The notes beneath the pieces are model-generated. The model had not been told where the DNA came from. It did not search any database and was given only the letters and a program-made list of their open reading frames with translations. The translations under genes were made by a program, and so were the position numbers. Below are positions 533 to 8,918 of a stretch of DNA of 12,468 nt, in pieces. This DNA is from Candidatus Adiutrix sp. (lineage in GTDB: Bacteria; Desulfobacterota; Desulfarculia; Adiutricales; Adiutricaceae). How positions within the stretch are numbered: the first letter of the stretch is position 1; the number at the start of each line of letters is the position of its first letter. Location of the stretch: NCBI GenBank assembly GCA_031273445.1, contig JAISRV010000431.1, positions 1-12,468 on the forward strand. Reading direction: 5' to 3'.

Positions 533-1423
533 ATGACCATGACTCAACGCACGCCGCGCAGCCAGACTGATTCATCCCATGCGGAAGCCCCCATGGAGCA
601 GGTTCGTGAAATCCTTTTCGGCGCTCAACTGAAAGATATGGAAGTGCGCTTCCAGCGTCAGGAGGAACGCCTTTTACGGGAGATTCATGAAGTCAAGGAT
701 TCTCTGCGTAAACGCCTGGATTCTTTGGAACATTTCATGAAAAGCGAAGTCTCGTCGCTCCTGGGGCGACTCAAGGAAGAGCAAAATGAAAGGGCGGCGG
801 CTCTTAAAGACGAGCAAAGGGAGCGAAGCGAGGCCATCAAGTCGGAACAAAGGGATCGGGCTGAACTCCTGGCCGTGGAAAAACGTGAGCGAACCGAAGC
901 CGTCAAGACCGAGCAGAGGGAACGGACGGAAGCCCTATCCCAGATGACCGGCGACCTTTTGGCCCTTTCGGAAACTTTCGACCGCAGGGCCGCCAAACTT
1001 TCCGACGCCCTTGACGCGACGGAAAGGGAGCTGCGGGAACTGTTCATGGTGGAAAACGGCCGCCTGACCGACAAAATCGAGGCCAAATACAACGACGCCC
1101 TGAGCGTTCTTTCCAAAACCGCGGCCCAGATCCGTTCCGATATGGTTTACCGCACGGCCCTGTCCACGATGATGACGGAAACGGTCATGAGTCTGAGCAA
1201 GCCCTGGAATCTGGAGGCGGCCGCGGCGGATGAGGCTTTCGCCGGCGACGAGCCGCCGGCCGAACGCCTGGACGGGTCCAACGGCTCGGACGAATATCAC
1301 GGCCGCGCGGCGGAGAGCCAGCCCTGGAGCGAGGCCGGCGAAGAGGTCCCCGGCTCTCCCTGGGACGGCGCTGAGAATGACGATCTGGTCAATCAGGAGA
1401 ATGCCGAAAGAACTCATAATTAA
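533..1423 (+). CDS. Cytoplasmic coiled-coil protein of the OmpA/GTPase cluster
   Basis: A 296-residue protein with no signal peptide or membrane segment. Residues 21-77 are an amphipathic helical region beginning MEQVREILFGAQLKDMEVRF. Residues 80-134 are five 11-residue repeats of the type LKxEQRERxEA, a hendecad coiled coil. Residues 135-215 continue helical, and the C-terminal 75 residues are acidic and probably disordered. From memory of the family, similar proteins occur beside OmpA-domain proteins and small GTPases in cyanobacteria and other bacteria, which fits the next two genes. No enzymatic motif is visible, so a scaffold or filament-like adaptor role is inferred. AGGA at 527-530 lies only two bases before the first ATG but eight before the second (539), so translation may begin at 539; a third candidate is Met21 at 593. 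The function is not experimentally known to me. Confidence 0.85.
   Translation: MTMTQRTPRSQTDSSHAEAPMEQVREILFGAQLKDMEVRFQRQEERLLREIHEVKDSLRKRLDSLEHFMKSEVSSLLGRLKEEQNERAAALKDEQRERSEAIKSEQRDRAELLAVEKRERTEAVKTEQRERTEALSQMTGDLLALSETFDRRAAKLSDALDATERELRELFMVENGRLTDKIEAKYNDALSVLSKTAAQIRSDMVYRTALSTMMTETVMSLSKPWNLEAAAADEAFAGDEPPAERLDGSNGSDEYHGRAAESQPWSEAGEEVPGSPWDGAENDDLVNQENAERTHN
770..934 (+). repeat. Five 11-residue (33-bp) hendecad repeats inside the coiled-coil gene
   Basis: Residues 80-134 divide exactly into five units: LKEEQNERAAA, LKDEQRERSEA, IKSEQRDRAEL, LAVEKRERTEA and VKTEQRERTEA. Each has a hydrophobic residue at position 1, acid at 4, a conserved R at 8 and mostly A at 11. An 11-residue period favours a slightly right-handed or straight coiled coil, or a surface-lying helix, rather than a classic heptad. 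Confidence 0.85.
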
Positions 1424-1666
1424 CCAAACAGGACGCTATGGTCGCCGCGCGGAAACAGCCGTTCTCATTTCGGGCCGGCTGTTTAAAAAGAACAGGTCGG
1501 CTCGATAGGGCCGACGGAGCGAAGCGACTGGCCCCAGAGGCCGATAAACCGTCCGCCAGGCGAAAATCGCGCTTTTTGCCCGGCTAGGACCAGCCACGAC
1601 AAGCCTCCAGGCCAAAATGAGAATTGCCGCGCGGTAGTGTTCTGTTTTGTTCCGGTCAGGATAAAT
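1424..1666 (+). other. Intergenic region with stable hairpins, no gene seen
   Basis: A perfect 9-bp stem AAACAGCCG/CGGCTGTTT (1453-1461 with 1476-1484) is followed by A-rich, not T-rich, sequence, so it is not a standard terminator. GTCGG/CCGAC (1496-1500 with 1511-1515) and the alternative GGGCC/GGCCC (1508-1512 with 1530-1534) are mutually exclusive hairpins. The loop of the second carries GAGCGAAGCGA, also present in the loop of the large palindrome near 5960. Whether the coiled-coil gene is cotranscribed with the next gene across this gap is unclear. Confidence 0.55.
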
Positions 1667-4099
1667 ATGGGTATTTTGGGTATCTTTAGAAAACGTCCTC
1701 TCGACGCCGAAACCTTCGCTCACGCCTCCGCGGTTGGGCCGCCGCCCGAGGCGCCGCCGGCTGAAGCGGCCGTCCGCGGCGGTTTGCCCGAGGCGGCGCC
1801 GGAGAGCGCGGCGCCGTGGGGCGAAAGCGTGGATGAAACTTTCACGCCCGCCTGTCAGGAGGCGCCCGGCAACGGCCAAAGCGCGGCGGAGACTTTCGCG
1901 CCCGCTTTTCCGGAGGCGCCCGGCGAGGACGAAGGCGCGGCGGAAGCGGGGCCGGACGAAGAGCCGTCGGCTCCGAAAGAGCCGGAAAGCCGCGAAGAGC
2001 CGTATTTAAAAGGCGCGGCGGAAGCGGGGCCGGACGAAGAACCGCCAGCTCCGAAAGAGCCGGAAAGCCGCGAAGAGCCGTATTTAAAAGGCGCGGCGGA
2101 AGCGGGGCCGGACGAAGAGCCGCCAGCCCCGAAAGAGCCGGAAAGCTACGAAGAGCGTTACTTAAAAAATATCGAGCGGCTGGCTTTTCCGGCCGCGGCC
2201 AAGCCGGCCCCGGAACCGGAGAAGGCGTCGGCGGAAGACTGGCCGCCCGCCCCGGACCCGCAGAGCGAGCTCGGCCGGCTCAGAACCATGATTCTGGGCC
2301 GTGAAATAGCCCAGGTGGAGGCCTTGCGCCGCACCTTGACCGAGCCCGGCCCGCACGCCAAAGCCGTCAGCCAGGTCATAACCGAGGCGCTTTTGCTGCG
2401 CTCCAAAGAAGACGACAAGCTGGGCGCGGTTTTAAGGCCCACGGTGGAGCGAATCTTTAAAGCTTCCGTGGACCGCGACCCGGAAGCCCTGGCCAGCCAG
2501 CTTTTCCCGGTCATAGGCCCGGCCATTCGCCGTTCCGTTTCGGAGGCTCTTTTTTCAAAGCTGCAAAGCTTCAACACCACCCTGGAAACGAGCTTGTCGC
2601 TCAAAGGGCTCAAGTGGCGCGTCGAAGCTTTGCGCACCAGGAAAACATTCAGCGAAATAGTGCTTTTGAAGACCCTGGTGTATCAGGTCGAGGAAATTTT
2701 TCTGATTCACGCGGAGACCGGAACAGCGCTGGAACACCTGCAAATAGAAGGCCTCGAAAATAGAGACACCGACATGGTGGGCAGCATGCTCACCGCCATC
2801 CTGTCCTTTATCCGGGACAGCTTCACCCGGGCCGGCCACGACAACCTCGAGACGATGCAGTTCGGCGAACGCACGATTTACTTCCGGCGCTCCGGTCAGA
2901 TGTATCTGGCCTGCGTGGTCCTGGGTTCTCCCCCGGCCGCCTTGCCGCAGGAGCTGCAGGAGGCGCTGGACCTGATAGTCGTGGAATGCGCCGAAGACAT
3001 GGCGAACTTCAGCGGCGACATTGAGGGTTTTAAAAAAGCCCGGCGTTATCTGTCTGATTTTCTGATCGCCAAATACAAGGAAAAACCCCGCCAAATGTCT
3101 TTTCTGTCGCGTGTGGTCATTTTTATGATCATAGCGGCTCTCCTGGGCGGGGCCGGCTGGCTCTATCGCCGGCATTACGAAGAAATTCAGCGGCAAGAGG
3201 CGACGGCGGCGGCGGCGGAGCAGGCTCGGATAAAGGCGGAGGAAGCCCTGGCCCTGGAAGCCGAAACTTTCCGGGTTCATCTGGACGAACTGGATAATAC
3301 CCCGGGGCTGGTTCTCGTCCGGGTCGCGCCCAGCCGGACCGCGGCCCCCTGGGAGATAACCGTGCTTAAGGACGTGCTGGCCAGGGAGCCGGAAGAAATT
3401 CTTCTGGAGAAGAATCTGCCGCCCGGGCGGTTTAAAATTTTCGTCCACCCCTATCTGTCCCTTGATCATGAAATAGTCAAAGCCAGGGTCGAATCGGCCA
3501 TTGAGCCTCTGCCCGGGGTTGAAATGACTTTTGACGACGCCGCCGGCGTTCTGAAATTCGCCGGTTCCGCTCCCATGGGCTGGATTATGGACACCAAGGA
3601 AAGAGCCCAAAGCATAGTCGGCGTCAGATCAGTGGACGTCAGCGGCCTCACGGACCCGCGTATGGCCGAGCTGGAGGCTTTGTTGGCGGAGATCAACGGC
3701 GTGATCATACACTTCCCCGTCAACAAAGATGAGCCCACGCCGGAAGACGCCCCGAAGCTGGCGGCCGCGGTCGACAAGGTGGCGGAGCTGGAACAACTGG
3801 CCGCCGCCATGCAGATTTCCGTCAGTCTGGTCATATATGGCCATGCCGACGCCACCGGACGCGACAAATATAATTACGAATTGAGCCAGGAGCGGGCCAA
3901 AACGGTGGCCGCCATGCTTTACGCGCGCGGCTCCGCCGTGCCCGTCTCCACTTACGGGCTGGGCGCGCAGTTCGCCGCGCCCGCTGAAGGCGCCGGGGAG
4001 GCGGCCGCCAATCCGGCCAGCCGCAAAATAGAATTGCGGGTTCGCTTCACCCAGGGCCTCTACGCCGGCGCCGTTGAAAAAGGTCGAATTTTGCCTTAG
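1667..4099 (+). CDS. Single-pass membrane protein: cytoplasmic longin/roadblock-like domain, TM helix, periplasmic OmpA domain
   Basis: An 810-residue protein. The ATG at 1667 is chosen because AGGA (1658-1661) lies five bases upstream; an in-frame GTG at 1637 has no such site. In order: a Pro/Glu/Ala-rich tether to about residue 200 with three 26-residue repeats (90-167); a helical region with LGRLRTMILGREI and LFPVIGPAIRRSV (about 202-340); a compact alpha/beta segment about 340-470, where VYQVEEIFLIHAETG, DTDMVGSMLTAILSFIRDSF and strands near LETMQFG resemble a longin/roadblock layout; basic residues, then a TM helix at 483-500; a coiled coil; a BON-like stretch about 570-665; and an OmpA_C domain from about 685 with GHADATGRDKYNYELSQERA, matching the peptidoglycan-binding NxxLSxxRAxxV pattern. 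Basic residues before the TM put the N-terminus inside. It ends 41 bases before the GTPase gene, its probable partner. The OmpA call is firm; the longin-like reading is inferred from apparent secondary structure. Confidence 0.9.
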   Translation: MGILGIFRKRPLDAETFAHASAVGPPPEAPPAEAAVRGGLPEAAPESAAPWGESVDETFTPACQEAPGNGQSAAETFAPAFPEAPGEDEGAAEAGPDEEPSAPKEPESREEPYLKGAAEAGPDEEPPAPKEPESREEPYLKGAAEAGPDEEPPAPKEPESYEERYLKNIERLAFPAAAKPAPEPEKASAEDWPPAPDPQSELGRLRTMILGREIAQVEALRRTLTEPGPHAKAVSQVITEALLLRSKEDDKLGAVLRPTVERIFKASVDRDPEALASQLFPVIGPAIRRSVSEALFSKLQSFNTTLETSLSLKGLKWRVEALRTRKTFSEIVLLKTLVYQVEEIFLIHAETGTALEHLQIEGLENRDTDMVGSMLTAILSFIRDSFTRAGHDNLETMQFGERTIYFRRSGQMYLACVVLGSPPAALPQELQEALDLIVVECAEDMANFSGDIEGFKKARRYLSDFLIAKYKEKPRQMSFLSRVVIFMIIAALLGGAGWLYRRHYEEIQRQEATAAAAEQARIKAEEALALEAETFRVHLDELDNTPGLVLVRVAPSRTAAPWEITVLKDVLAREPEEILLEKNLPPGRFKIFVHPYLSLDHEIVKARVESAIEPLPGVEMTFDDAAGVLKFAGSAPMGWIMDTKERAQSIVGVRSVDVSGLTDPRMAELEALLAEINGVIIHFPVNKDEPTPEDAPKLAAAVDKVAELEQLAAAMQISVSLVIYGHADATGRDKYNYELSQERAKTVAAMLYARGSAVPVSTYGLGAQFAAPAEGAGEAAANPASRKIELRVRFTQGLYAGAVEKGRILP
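1934..2167 (+). repeat. Three tandem 78-bp repeats encoding a 26-residue acidic/proline unit
   Basis: Copies at 1934-2011, 2012-2089 and 2090-2167. Copies 1 and 2 differ at three bases by eye; copy 3 differs more, mainly at its end. Each encodes GAAEAGPDEEPxAPKEPES followed by xEExYLK. The high nucleotide identity points to recent duplication or gene conversion, so copy number may vary between strains. The repeats lengthen the disordered cytoplasmic tether of the OmpA-domain protein. A weaker, older repeat (ETFxPAxxEAPG) precedes them. Confidence 0.95.
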
Positions 4100-4140
4100 A
4101 TATTTATGCTGGGAAACAAAAATACATTGGCGGGAGACAA

Positions 4141-4641
4141 ATGATACTAAAAAAGAAGATATGCATGTTAGGCTCTTTCGGGGTCGGGAAAACCGCCTTG
4201 GTTCAGCAATATGTAAATTCCATGTTTTCCGATGTCTACCTCTCTTCCGTGGGCGTGAAAATCAGCAAGAAAACAGTGCGGACCGACGGGACTTCCGTGG
4301 ATTTTGCGCTGTGGGACCTGGAAGGCCAGGACGACTATGGCGCGGTCAATATCTCCTATCTGCGAGGCGCCGCGGGTTTTTTTCTCGTGGCCGACGGCGT
4401 CCGGGGCGAAACCCTGTCGGTGGCGCTGAGTCTGCGCGCCAAAGCCCTGGATACTCTGGGCGCCGACACCCCGCACCTTCTGCTGGTCAATAAAGAAGAT
4501 TTGAAAGAAAAATGGGAAATAACGGATAAGGTTCTGGATTCGCTTAAGGCCTATGGCGTCAGGCTGCTTCTGACCAGCGCCAAGACCGGGCTGAATGTGA
4601 ATGAGGCGTTCACCCTTCTGGCCAAGGACATGTTGGAGTAA
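4141..4641 (+). CDS. Ras/Rab-like small GTPase
   Basis: A 166-residue single-domain GTPase with all G motifs: P-loop GSFGVGKT (11-18), switch I SSVGVKI with Ser36 where Rab proteins have Thr, G3 DLEGQ (59-63) with the catalytic-type Gln kept, G4 NKED (117-120) and G5 TSAK (145-148). The WDLEGQDDY context and the length match the bacterial Rab-like group rather than Era/Obg, EF or Roco proteins. There is no C-terminal cysteine or membrane anchor, so membrane recruitment must come from a partner. GGAG at 4133-4136 precedes the ATG by four bases. The gene follows the OmpA-domain protein after only 41 bases, so the two are probably cotranscribed. No separate GAP or GEF gene is visible; the cytoplasmic part of the OmpA-domain protein is the natural candidate. 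The GTPase assignment is firm; the cellular role is inferred. Confidence 0.95.
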   Translation: MILKKKICMLGSFGVGKTALVQQYVNSMFSDVYLSSVGVKISKKTVRTDGTSVDFALWDLEGQDDYGAVNISYLRGAAGFFLVADGVRGETLSVALSLRAKALDTLGADTPHLLLVNKEDLKEKWEITDKVLDSLKAYGVRLLLTSAKTGLNVNEAFTLLAKDMLE

Positions 4642-5086
4642 TTCCGGCCTTGCCCTTCCTGAAAACGCGGCTTTGGCTATTTTGGACGGCGCGCTTAAAT
4701 CCGTCCCTCAAAGCAGGGCCGGAATTAAGCTCCGGAAATTTTCTTGAGAATGCGATTTTCAAGAAAATTCGACAATTGCATTGTCGGCCAGTCGCTCTCG
4801 CGCCTGGCCGGCGCCCTGTATGGTTATAAGGAACTAACCGCACAGTGCGCCAGGCTCGGCTTCAGCTTGACCTCCAAGGCGTCTCGATGGAAAATTATGC
4901 CGTCCCGGCAGTAAAACTTTGCCGCCTTTTTAGGGCGGTTTGAAGTTAAAAGGGACGCCCTGTTGTATATTTATATTGATTTCATCATGTTAATTATTGG
5001 CATGGCCTTTGCTTCACTACTTGTCGCGGCTCGGCGTCCGTCAAAAACGCGCCGGCTAAAACCAAACAACGACAGGGAGTTTCACC
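4642..5086 (+). other. Structured intergenic region with a chain of hairpins, no gene seen
   Basis: The perfect arms AATTCCGGCC/GGCCGGAATT (4640-4649 with 4717-4726) start at the GTPase stop codon and enclose GACGG/CCGTC. These are followed by AATTTTCTTGA/TCAAGAAAATT (4737-4747 with 4759-4769), GACAAT/ATTGTC (4771-4776 with 4780-4785), GGCCAG/CTGGCC (from 4786), GGTTA/TAACC (4822-4839) and CCGCC/GGCGG (4922-4938). No arm has a convincing T tract. It could be a decayed small mobile element or a 3' UTR/ncRNA region. An AT-rich stretch at 4961-5000 may hold the MerR promoter, but I could not place a good -35/-10 pair. Confidence 0.55.
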
Positions 5087-5425: not shown

Positions 5426-5429
5426 CCAG

Positions 5430-5676
5430 CCAGGGCTCCGCCCTGGACCCCGGATGCTCCGCATCCGATCCGTAGGGGCCTGGTCGGCGGGCGGTTGTTG
5501 GTCGGCCGGGACCGCCAGCGGAGGCTGCGCCAGGGCTCCGCCCTGGACCCCGGATGCTCCGCATCCGATCCGTAGGGGCCTGGTCGGCGGGTGGTTGTTG
5601 GTCGGCCGGGACCGCCAGCGGAGGCTGCGCCAGGGCTCCGCCTTGGACCCCGGATGCTCCGCATCCGATCCGTAGG
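5430..5676 (+). repeat. 100-bp tandem REP-like units (about 2.5 copies) directly after the MerR gene
   Basis: Units begin at 5430, 5530 and 5630, an exact 100-base period. Units 1 and 2 appear to differ at one position; unit 3 follows the pattern to about 5676 and then diverges. Each unit opens with two adjacent hairpins, CCAGGGCtccGCCCTGG and CGGATGCtccGCATCCG, followed by GATCCGTAGGGGC and a G/T-rich tail. The first hairpin begins four bases after the MerR stop codon. Paired-hairpin, GC-rich extragenic repeats of this type are typical REP/BIME elements. All frames through it are artefacts of the repeat. Confidence 0.92.
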
Positions 5677-8820: not shown

Positions 8821-8877
8821 GTGGATCAAAGCCAGTCTTCCGCCGCCTTGAGGTCCTAAGGCTCGGTAAGGGGATTA

Positions 8878-8918
8878 TTTTTGTCTGACTAATTTTTGTC
8901 TGACTAATTTTTGTCTAA
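8878..8918 (+). repeat. 15-bp tandem repeat upstream of rpsL
   Basis: TTTTTGTCTGACTAA is repeated at 8878-8892 and 8893-8907, with a partial third copy from 8908 (TTTTTGTCT, then AATG). It lies between the leader terminator and the rpsL ribosome binding site (AAGG 8962-8965). It could be a repeated operator, an A/T-rich RNA landing site or simple slippage; nothing in the sequence decides. Confidence 0.85.

Follow-up and report, generated by a model that had tools for sequence, protein, structure and literature searches.

The three consecutive genes analysed here, from a 12,468-nucleotide stretch of DNA (hereafter the window), encode a hendecad coiled-coil protein, an envelope-spanning protein and a Ras-superfamily GTPase, and are proposed to belong to a Rup-type relay in which a wall-anchored, longin-like receptor would switch a GTPase controlling a diguanylate cyclase. 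We regard the chances of this reading as evenly balanced. It builds on directly observed features, namely the genes themselves, their co-occurrence and order in other genomes, an intact set of GTPase motifs, an unlinked output protein with a GGEEF motif and an upstream RxxD site, and the exchange of output enzymes between relatives.

Gene set and conservation

The three genes lie one after another on the plus strand of the open-reading-frame list (Table 1), and the initial annotation was right to treat all of them as real. A terminator-like hairpin at 254–283 (11 pairs, nine of them G–C) is located 5′ of promoter-like sites at 300–327 and 358–385; these sites are consensus matches only, as are the 13 terminator-like and four promoter-like sites found in total, compared with 8.0 and 1.5, respectively, in shuffled sequence. 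Elsewhere in the window, a 100-bp tandem repeat (5429–5676; 2.5 copies, 98% matches) is found just 3′ of a MerR-like gene, and 2.7 perfect copies of the 15-bp repeat ATTTTTGTCTGACTA (8877–8916) are found upstream of an rpsL-like gene.

Table 1. Positions of the features within the window, with the evidence on which each was delineated.
Feature	Positions	Strand	Basis
Coiled-coil protein, 296 aa, cytoplasmic	533–1423	+	ORF; lag-11 repeat; no TM-like stretch
Hendecad (11-residue) repeat, approximately residues 76–137 of the coiled coil	758–943	+	Lag identities
Longin-like/TM/OmpA membrane protein, 810 aa	1667–4099	+	ORF, Pfam, alignment of relatives
Low-complexity Pro/Glu/Ala-rich N-terminal stretch, variable among relatives	1667–2233	+	Alignment
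Conserved cytoplasmic region, residues 190–317, helical-looking by eye, preceding the longin-like part	2234–2617	+	Conservation
Putative longin-like cytoplasmic domain, residues 318–475	2618–3091	+	Recurrent weak Fuz_longin_1 matches
Single transmembrane helix, residues 483–501	3113–3169	+	Hydropathy: one strong hydrophobic stretch
Periplasmic BON-like region, by eye (tentative)	3446–3655	+	BON in one homologue
OmpA-type peptidoglycan-binding domain, residues 699–767	3761–3967	+	Pfam OmpA, E = 4.3e-9
Rup-type Ras-superfamily GTPase, 166 aa	4141–4641	+	Pfam Ras, PDB Rab10/Rab8, G1–G5 motifs
G3 motif WDLEGQ; its Gln aligns with Ras Gln61 and is lacking in most relatives	4312–4329	+	Alignment
Intergenic stretch, site of the output gene in most relatives; none here	4642–5086	.	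Neighbour comparison

The hendecad periodicity ascribed to the first protein was confirmed by 24 identities at lag 11 and 21 at lag 22 over residues 76–155, where the other lags from 3 to 21 gave at most 11, and by a hydrophobic period of 3.667 over residues 29–190 that was equalled by 0.1% of shuffles. Among 140 related coiled-coil proteins, the genes of which are positioned directly 5′ of the membrane-protein gene, 75 likewise had lag 11 as their best lag within the range 5–19. A Pfam search with the window protein returned nothing above cut-off.

The third protein was verified as a Ras/Rab-like GTPase by matches to Pfam Ras (1.6e-28) and, in the PDB, to Rab10 as the best hit (6.7e-23), with Rab8 also among the best. 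Motifs G1–G5 are intact and there is no TM-like stretch, in keeping with the earlier statement that the GTPase has no membrane anchor of its own. Across 131 distinct systems (identical GTPase sequences counted once), switch I holds Tyr in 128, Gly in 128 and Lys in 125 (three gaps), the G3 Asp59 is present in 128, and the position of Ras Gly12 is Phe in 102. A D-G-T/V-R motif was observed at Asp85–Arg88 (window 4393–4404), with Arg88 in 130/131 systems and Asn in the aligned Rab10. A tandem pair of GTPase genes was found within one operon at L205:7483–8615.

Relatives were collected with a membrane-protein scan (476 relatives), in which the 80 loci among the matches listed, not counting the window, held the GTPase in 76, the coiled-coil gene in 77, the N-terminal domain of the fourth protein in 63 and a further small conserved protein or domain in 37; neither type of output was present in nine of these 80 listed loci. 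The loci holding coiled coil, membrane protein and GTPase numbered 130 (124 distinct systems, six genomes being present twice); their order was coiled coil–membrane protein–GTPase–output in 86, a further 22 had a small protein between GTPase and output in this order, and nine lacked an output gene in the locus. The GTPase was found in all 12 genomes searched, which comprised nine with incomplete fetched loci, the window's own (G000) and two genus mates, and where it was absent from the locus (L015, L027, L033 and L087) it was encoded elsewhere in the genome. Co-occurrence of the three families, the check put forward in the initial annotation, was thus strongly positive in the 80 loci, the 12 genomes and the 130 loci of fixed order, and its view of the genes as a functional module is upheld by the GTPase and coiled-coil counts.

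At E 1e-30, the window's phylum yielded the membrane protein in 14/395 genomes, and the phyla of L064, L085 and L036 yielded it in 9/199, 51/398 and 3/50 genomes, respectively. Within the window's family, the GTPase was detected in 32 of 37 genomes, and in 11 of the 12 with a completeness of ≥90% and a contamination of ≤5%. The genus has it in five of seven genomes, with none in G1067 (91% complete) or G1070 (81% complete). A tree of the cytoplasmic region of the membrane protein joins the window lineage with cyanobacterial and other systems.

Membrane protein and its cytoplasmic domain

The frame of the membrane protein is open from GTG 1637 to 4099, and ATG 1667, which gives 810 residues, is the preferred candidate start because some relatives open likewise with MG..F; an MG start was seen in just 17 of 143 related ORFs, each read from its first start codon. 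The low-complexity stretch that follows includes a 78-bp (26-residue) tandem repeat at 1932–2167. The single transmembrane helix and the OmpA domain bear out the trans-envelope topology proposed at the outset, and within the OmpA domain N736 and R743 are invariant and D728 nearly so among 23 aligned sequences. The BON-like region is tentative: a Pfam BON match was obtained for homologue P0070 only (E = 0.0079) and none for the window protein, and more than one copy may occur in some relatives, as suggested by repeated matches in some genomes. Of note, locus L155 (929–10270) encodes a 3113-residue membrane-protein relative directly 3′ of a coiled-coil gene, and GTPase or output matches were not found in its 12-kb stretch. 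The JGI label “OOP family OmpA-OmpF porin”, carried by many of the homologues P0002–P0064, does not fit the layout of cytoplasmic domain, TM helix and OmpA domain.

The cytoplasmic domain probably adopts a longin fold. In the window protein, its sole Pfam match up to E 1 was Fuz_longin_1 (PF19036; E = 0.13, 12.9 bits), and the matching segment of homologue P0039 reached 6.3e-5 and 23.6 bits, under the Pfam cut-off of 26.1 bits, so that neither gave a match at the curated threshold. Fuz_longin_1 was also the commonest Pfam family among relatives of the domain, with 8/81 and 6/77 in two partly overlapping sets, followed by Robl_LC7 (3 and 1) and Intu_longin_1 (2 and 1); P0039 alone matched it among 25 full-length homologues, and alone among 30 scanned singly. 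A scan of 20 genomes with the PF19036 model did not recover the membrane protein, no longin or roadblock chain was retrieved when the PDB was searched with a profile of the domain, and a PDB search with P0039 alone returned OmpA chains and, again, neither longin nor roadblock chains. Such sub-threshold matches and negative hhalign and PDB searches would suit an unrelated alpha/beta fold that merely tethers the GTPase, an explanation that we consider unlikely given the recurrence of three longin/roadblock families among the 32 families matched and the placement of Fuz_longin_1 on one and the same segment in the window protein and in P0039. Assigning a longin fold to a domain left without an assignment in 2014 is accordingly offered as plausible, if unproven. 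The initial annotation had described a longin/roadblock-like layout: its longin half is retained at the level of the P0039 match, whereas an MglB-type roadblock was not supported, as hhalign against 27 Robl_LC7 domains from the phylum gave approximately 1% (0.8–0.9%) and a control with reversed columns reached a similar score.

If the domain is a longin, exchange activity towards the GTPase may be envisaged. The alignment column that we take, from the Rab7 sequence, to be that of Ypt7 Lys38 contains Leu in 81, His in 23, Gln in 18 and Lys in only two of the 131 GTPases, which counts against such activity; the Tyr just before it is present in all 128 that have a letter there. According to the available text of the sources, Lys38 of Ypt7 serves exchange by Mon1–Ccz1 (PMC5216073), a longin heterodimer that acts as a RabGEF (PMC5216073, PMC12383261).

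Output protein and the glutamine contrast

The fourth (output) gene is absent from the window. A full-length gene, encoding the conserved N-terminal domain followed by GGDEF, was located elsewhere in the genome (G000:C276:3461–4453), a draft assembly that is 72% complete and has GTPase and output on separate contigs. Its product is 56% identical to that of L035 over residues 3–313 (E 1.8e-116) and shares 76% and 72% identity with its counterparts in two genus mates. It reads RKND, five residues and GGEEF, an arrangement typical of diguanylate cyclases that are active and subject to product inhibition. A bactofilin-like gene, recognized by eye (L160:2210–2824 in G000:C276), precedes the unlinked output gene by approximately 640 bp.

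The output gene adjoins the GTPase gene in the genus mates G260, G1068, G1069 and G281. The four-gene operon is intact in G260 and G1068. In G1069 a contig end carries the GTPase with the output, and in G281 one contig carries coiled coil and membrane protein and a second one the GTPase and output. As assembled, the operon is thus broken up in two ways within the genus, with its parts kept. In seven of the 12 genomes searched, the window's fourth protein had a match extending over the N-terminal domain, and in the other five GGDEF parts only were matched; in one of these five, G615 (L216), the N-terminal domain was found on another kind of protein. The coiled coil, which had been offered as effector or scaffold, is less likely to be the effector because the usual output is the fourth protein, unlinked here.

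The outputs are swappable behind the conserved N-terminal domain. Among 29 fourth proteins, GGDEF and HATPase_c occurred in 13 each, HD in two and sigma-54 AAA in one. A second set of 64 outputs (63 distinct, four of them also among the 29) carried adenylyl/guanylyl cyclase domains in 28, GGDEF in 21, HATPase_c in six, SpoIIE in five, EAL in four, and HD and sigma-54 AAA in one each, several domains per protein being possible; since this set was chosen as output matches of at least 200 residues in later loci, supplemented with a handful from the early loci, these shares do not represent a random sample. The N-terminal domains fall into two types that may be related, given a weak end-to-end alignment (hhalign 7%, E 0.005). 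As this domain is the constant part while the enzymes vary, it would be the docking site. PDB profile searches with it and with the small fifth protein gave no credible match, and a PAS-like nature considered for both found no database support.

The residue at the Ras Gln61 position of the GTPase was compared with the site of the partner glutamine in the output, which is assumed to be the Gln named in PMC4316618. Of the 131 systems, 89 have the fourth type of output domain, and seven (the window, L159, L027, L033, L015, L020 and L087) were paired across contigs of one genome. Where the partner has Gln (55 systems), the GTPase has Glu in 46, Lys in four, Ile in two and Asp, Ala and Val in one each, and never Gln; where it has Arg (29 systems), the GTPase has Gln in 18, Lys in seven, Arg in two and Ser and Glu in one each. 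The partner has neither residue in five of the 89 (two Gly, one Met, one His and one gap). Thus, all 18 systems with a G3 Gln, the window included, pair it with an output Arg, an exclusion with a Fisher p of 3.6e-11 when kinship is disregarded. On a tree of 88 systems, from which L057 was omitted for its gap at the site, the GTPase Gln changes twice (in the window's clade of 17 and in L030) and the partner Gln five times, and an independent-pairs test could not reach significance. The exclusion is complete in this set, yet with only two GTPase changes on the tree we treat it as a lead rather than proof. A tie between the GTPase Gln and loss of the fourth gene was also considered, and was dropped because Gln-bearing relatives keep that gene alongside.

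The 2014 authors, in the available text of PMC4316618, suggested that the output supplies the Gln in trans. Under that explanation, the output N-terminal domain would act on GTP hydrolysis, the output being a GAP whose Gln has here moved into the GTPase. The mutual exclusion fits this scheme, as does an Arg three residues past the Gln site that is kept in 86 of the 89 systems, but the changes on the tree are few, a partner Arg also occurs beside GTPase residues other than Gln, and the Gln sits where the N-terminal domain ends, perhaps in a linker helix as judged by eye. We therefore hold the GAP scheme to be doubtful. The contrast between lineages nonetheless offers a natural experiment for testing if GTPase and effector share catalysis.

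Proposed relay and relation to known systems

In the relay that we propose, the OmpA domain would hold the membrane protein to the wall, the longin-like domain would bind the GTPase in the cytoplasm and promote GDP/GTP exchange, and the coiled coil would scaffold the complex. The GTP-loaded GTPase would then dock on the conserved N-terminal domain of the output and set its enzyme activity, the output here being the diguanylate cyclase encoded elsewhere in the genome. With the signal presumably running from receptor through GTPase to diguanylate cyclase, c-di-GMP would be governed by the condition of the wall or envelope. Weighing against the relay are the sub-threshold longin matches and negative searches, the poorly conserved exchange Lys, the placement of GTPase and output on separate contigs of an incomplete draft and the two genus genomes in which the GTPase was not detected.

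A structural scaffold, in which the GTPase would time assembly of an envelope-spanning complex (for polarity, division or wall synthesis) with the enzymes secondary, has in its favour the OmpA anchor and the coiled coil, the RlpA-like and D-Ala-D-Ala carboxypeptidase-like wall genes seen by eye downstream and the bactofilin-like gene near the unlinked output, but it is improbable, as the operons of relatives with listed flanks showed none of those neighbours and the next gene is usually an output enzyme. The neighbour link to wall enzymes was itself dropped because it is not common to the listed relatives.

A bolder form of the proposed relay, for which the chances are slim, would make the wall-anchored bacterial longin receptor the exchange factor for a Rup GTPase, of the prokaryotic group nearest to eukaryotic Rab/Ras, which would directly drive cyclases through the docking domain, with the catalytic Gln moved between effector and GTPase. 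If so, the longin–Rab pairing exists in bacteria and could predate eukaryotes. Should the longin assignment hold, receptor, exchange domain, Ras-like switch and cyclase would be found within one bacterial operon, providing a tractable system for the origins of G-protein signalling and perhaps connecting the condition of the cell wall to c-di-GMP or cAMP.

Yeast adenylyl cyclase is controlled by Ras; similarly, 28 of the 64 outputs carry a class III cyclase domain and neighbour a Ras-superfamily GTPase. Unlike in yeast, the window's own output is a diguanylate cyclase and the link is a prediction from the genes. As in the MglA–MglB systems of Myxococcus and Thermus, a small GTPase is encoded with a partner that is proposed to be of the longin/roadblock kind, although this partner is a membrane protein without a roadblock profile match, unlike MglB. 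The G3 Asp, which we take to be the residue replaced by Thr in MglA, is kept here. The replacement of a conserved residue by Thr in MglA is given in the available text of PMC3000849. With FUZ, MON1 and HPS1, the window protein shares a weak match to the first longin domain and a Rab-like GTPase partner; the eukaryotic longin RabGEFs differ in being heterodimers, each subunit of which has three longin domains (PMC12383261, available text), and their exchange Lys is not conserved here. Actinobacterial conservons (CvnA–D) likewise combine a GTPase, a small partner and a signalling protein in one operon, but their membrane protein is a histidine kinase, their partner is MglB-like and no OmpA protein is named for them in the available text of PMC4316618.

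The closest counterpart is Rup Group 1 of Wuichet and Sogaard-Andersen (2014), a predicted system that the available text of PMC4316618 describes as a coiled-coil protein, a protein with a domain of unknown nature followed by TM and OmpA, a Ras-superfamily GTPase and an output; the remark in the initial annotation that related gene sets exist in other bacteria was therefore correct. According to the same text, the fourth gene encodes a c-di-GMP enzyme or histidine kinase with an N-terminal region bearing an invariant Gln, the known members are said to be without the catalytic G3 Gln, and as of 2014 no Rup member had been experimentally characterized, the one of Nostoc punctiforme being transcribed; no experimental study of any Rup system was found in the available text of the later literature searched (including PMC4915359 and PMC13015309). 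Adenylate or adenylyl cyclase has no mention in the main text of PMC4316618, in contrast to the cyclase outputs seen here. The window shares with Group 1 the coiled-coil and domain–TM–OmpA proteins beside the GTPase and an output with a conserved N-terminal region, and differs in that its GTPase has the G3 Gln, its output has Arg for the conserved Gln and the formerly nameless domain is proposed to be longin-like. Because its fourth gene is not adjacent and its G3 Gln is present, the window system is filed as a variant of Rup Group 1, not as a plain member.
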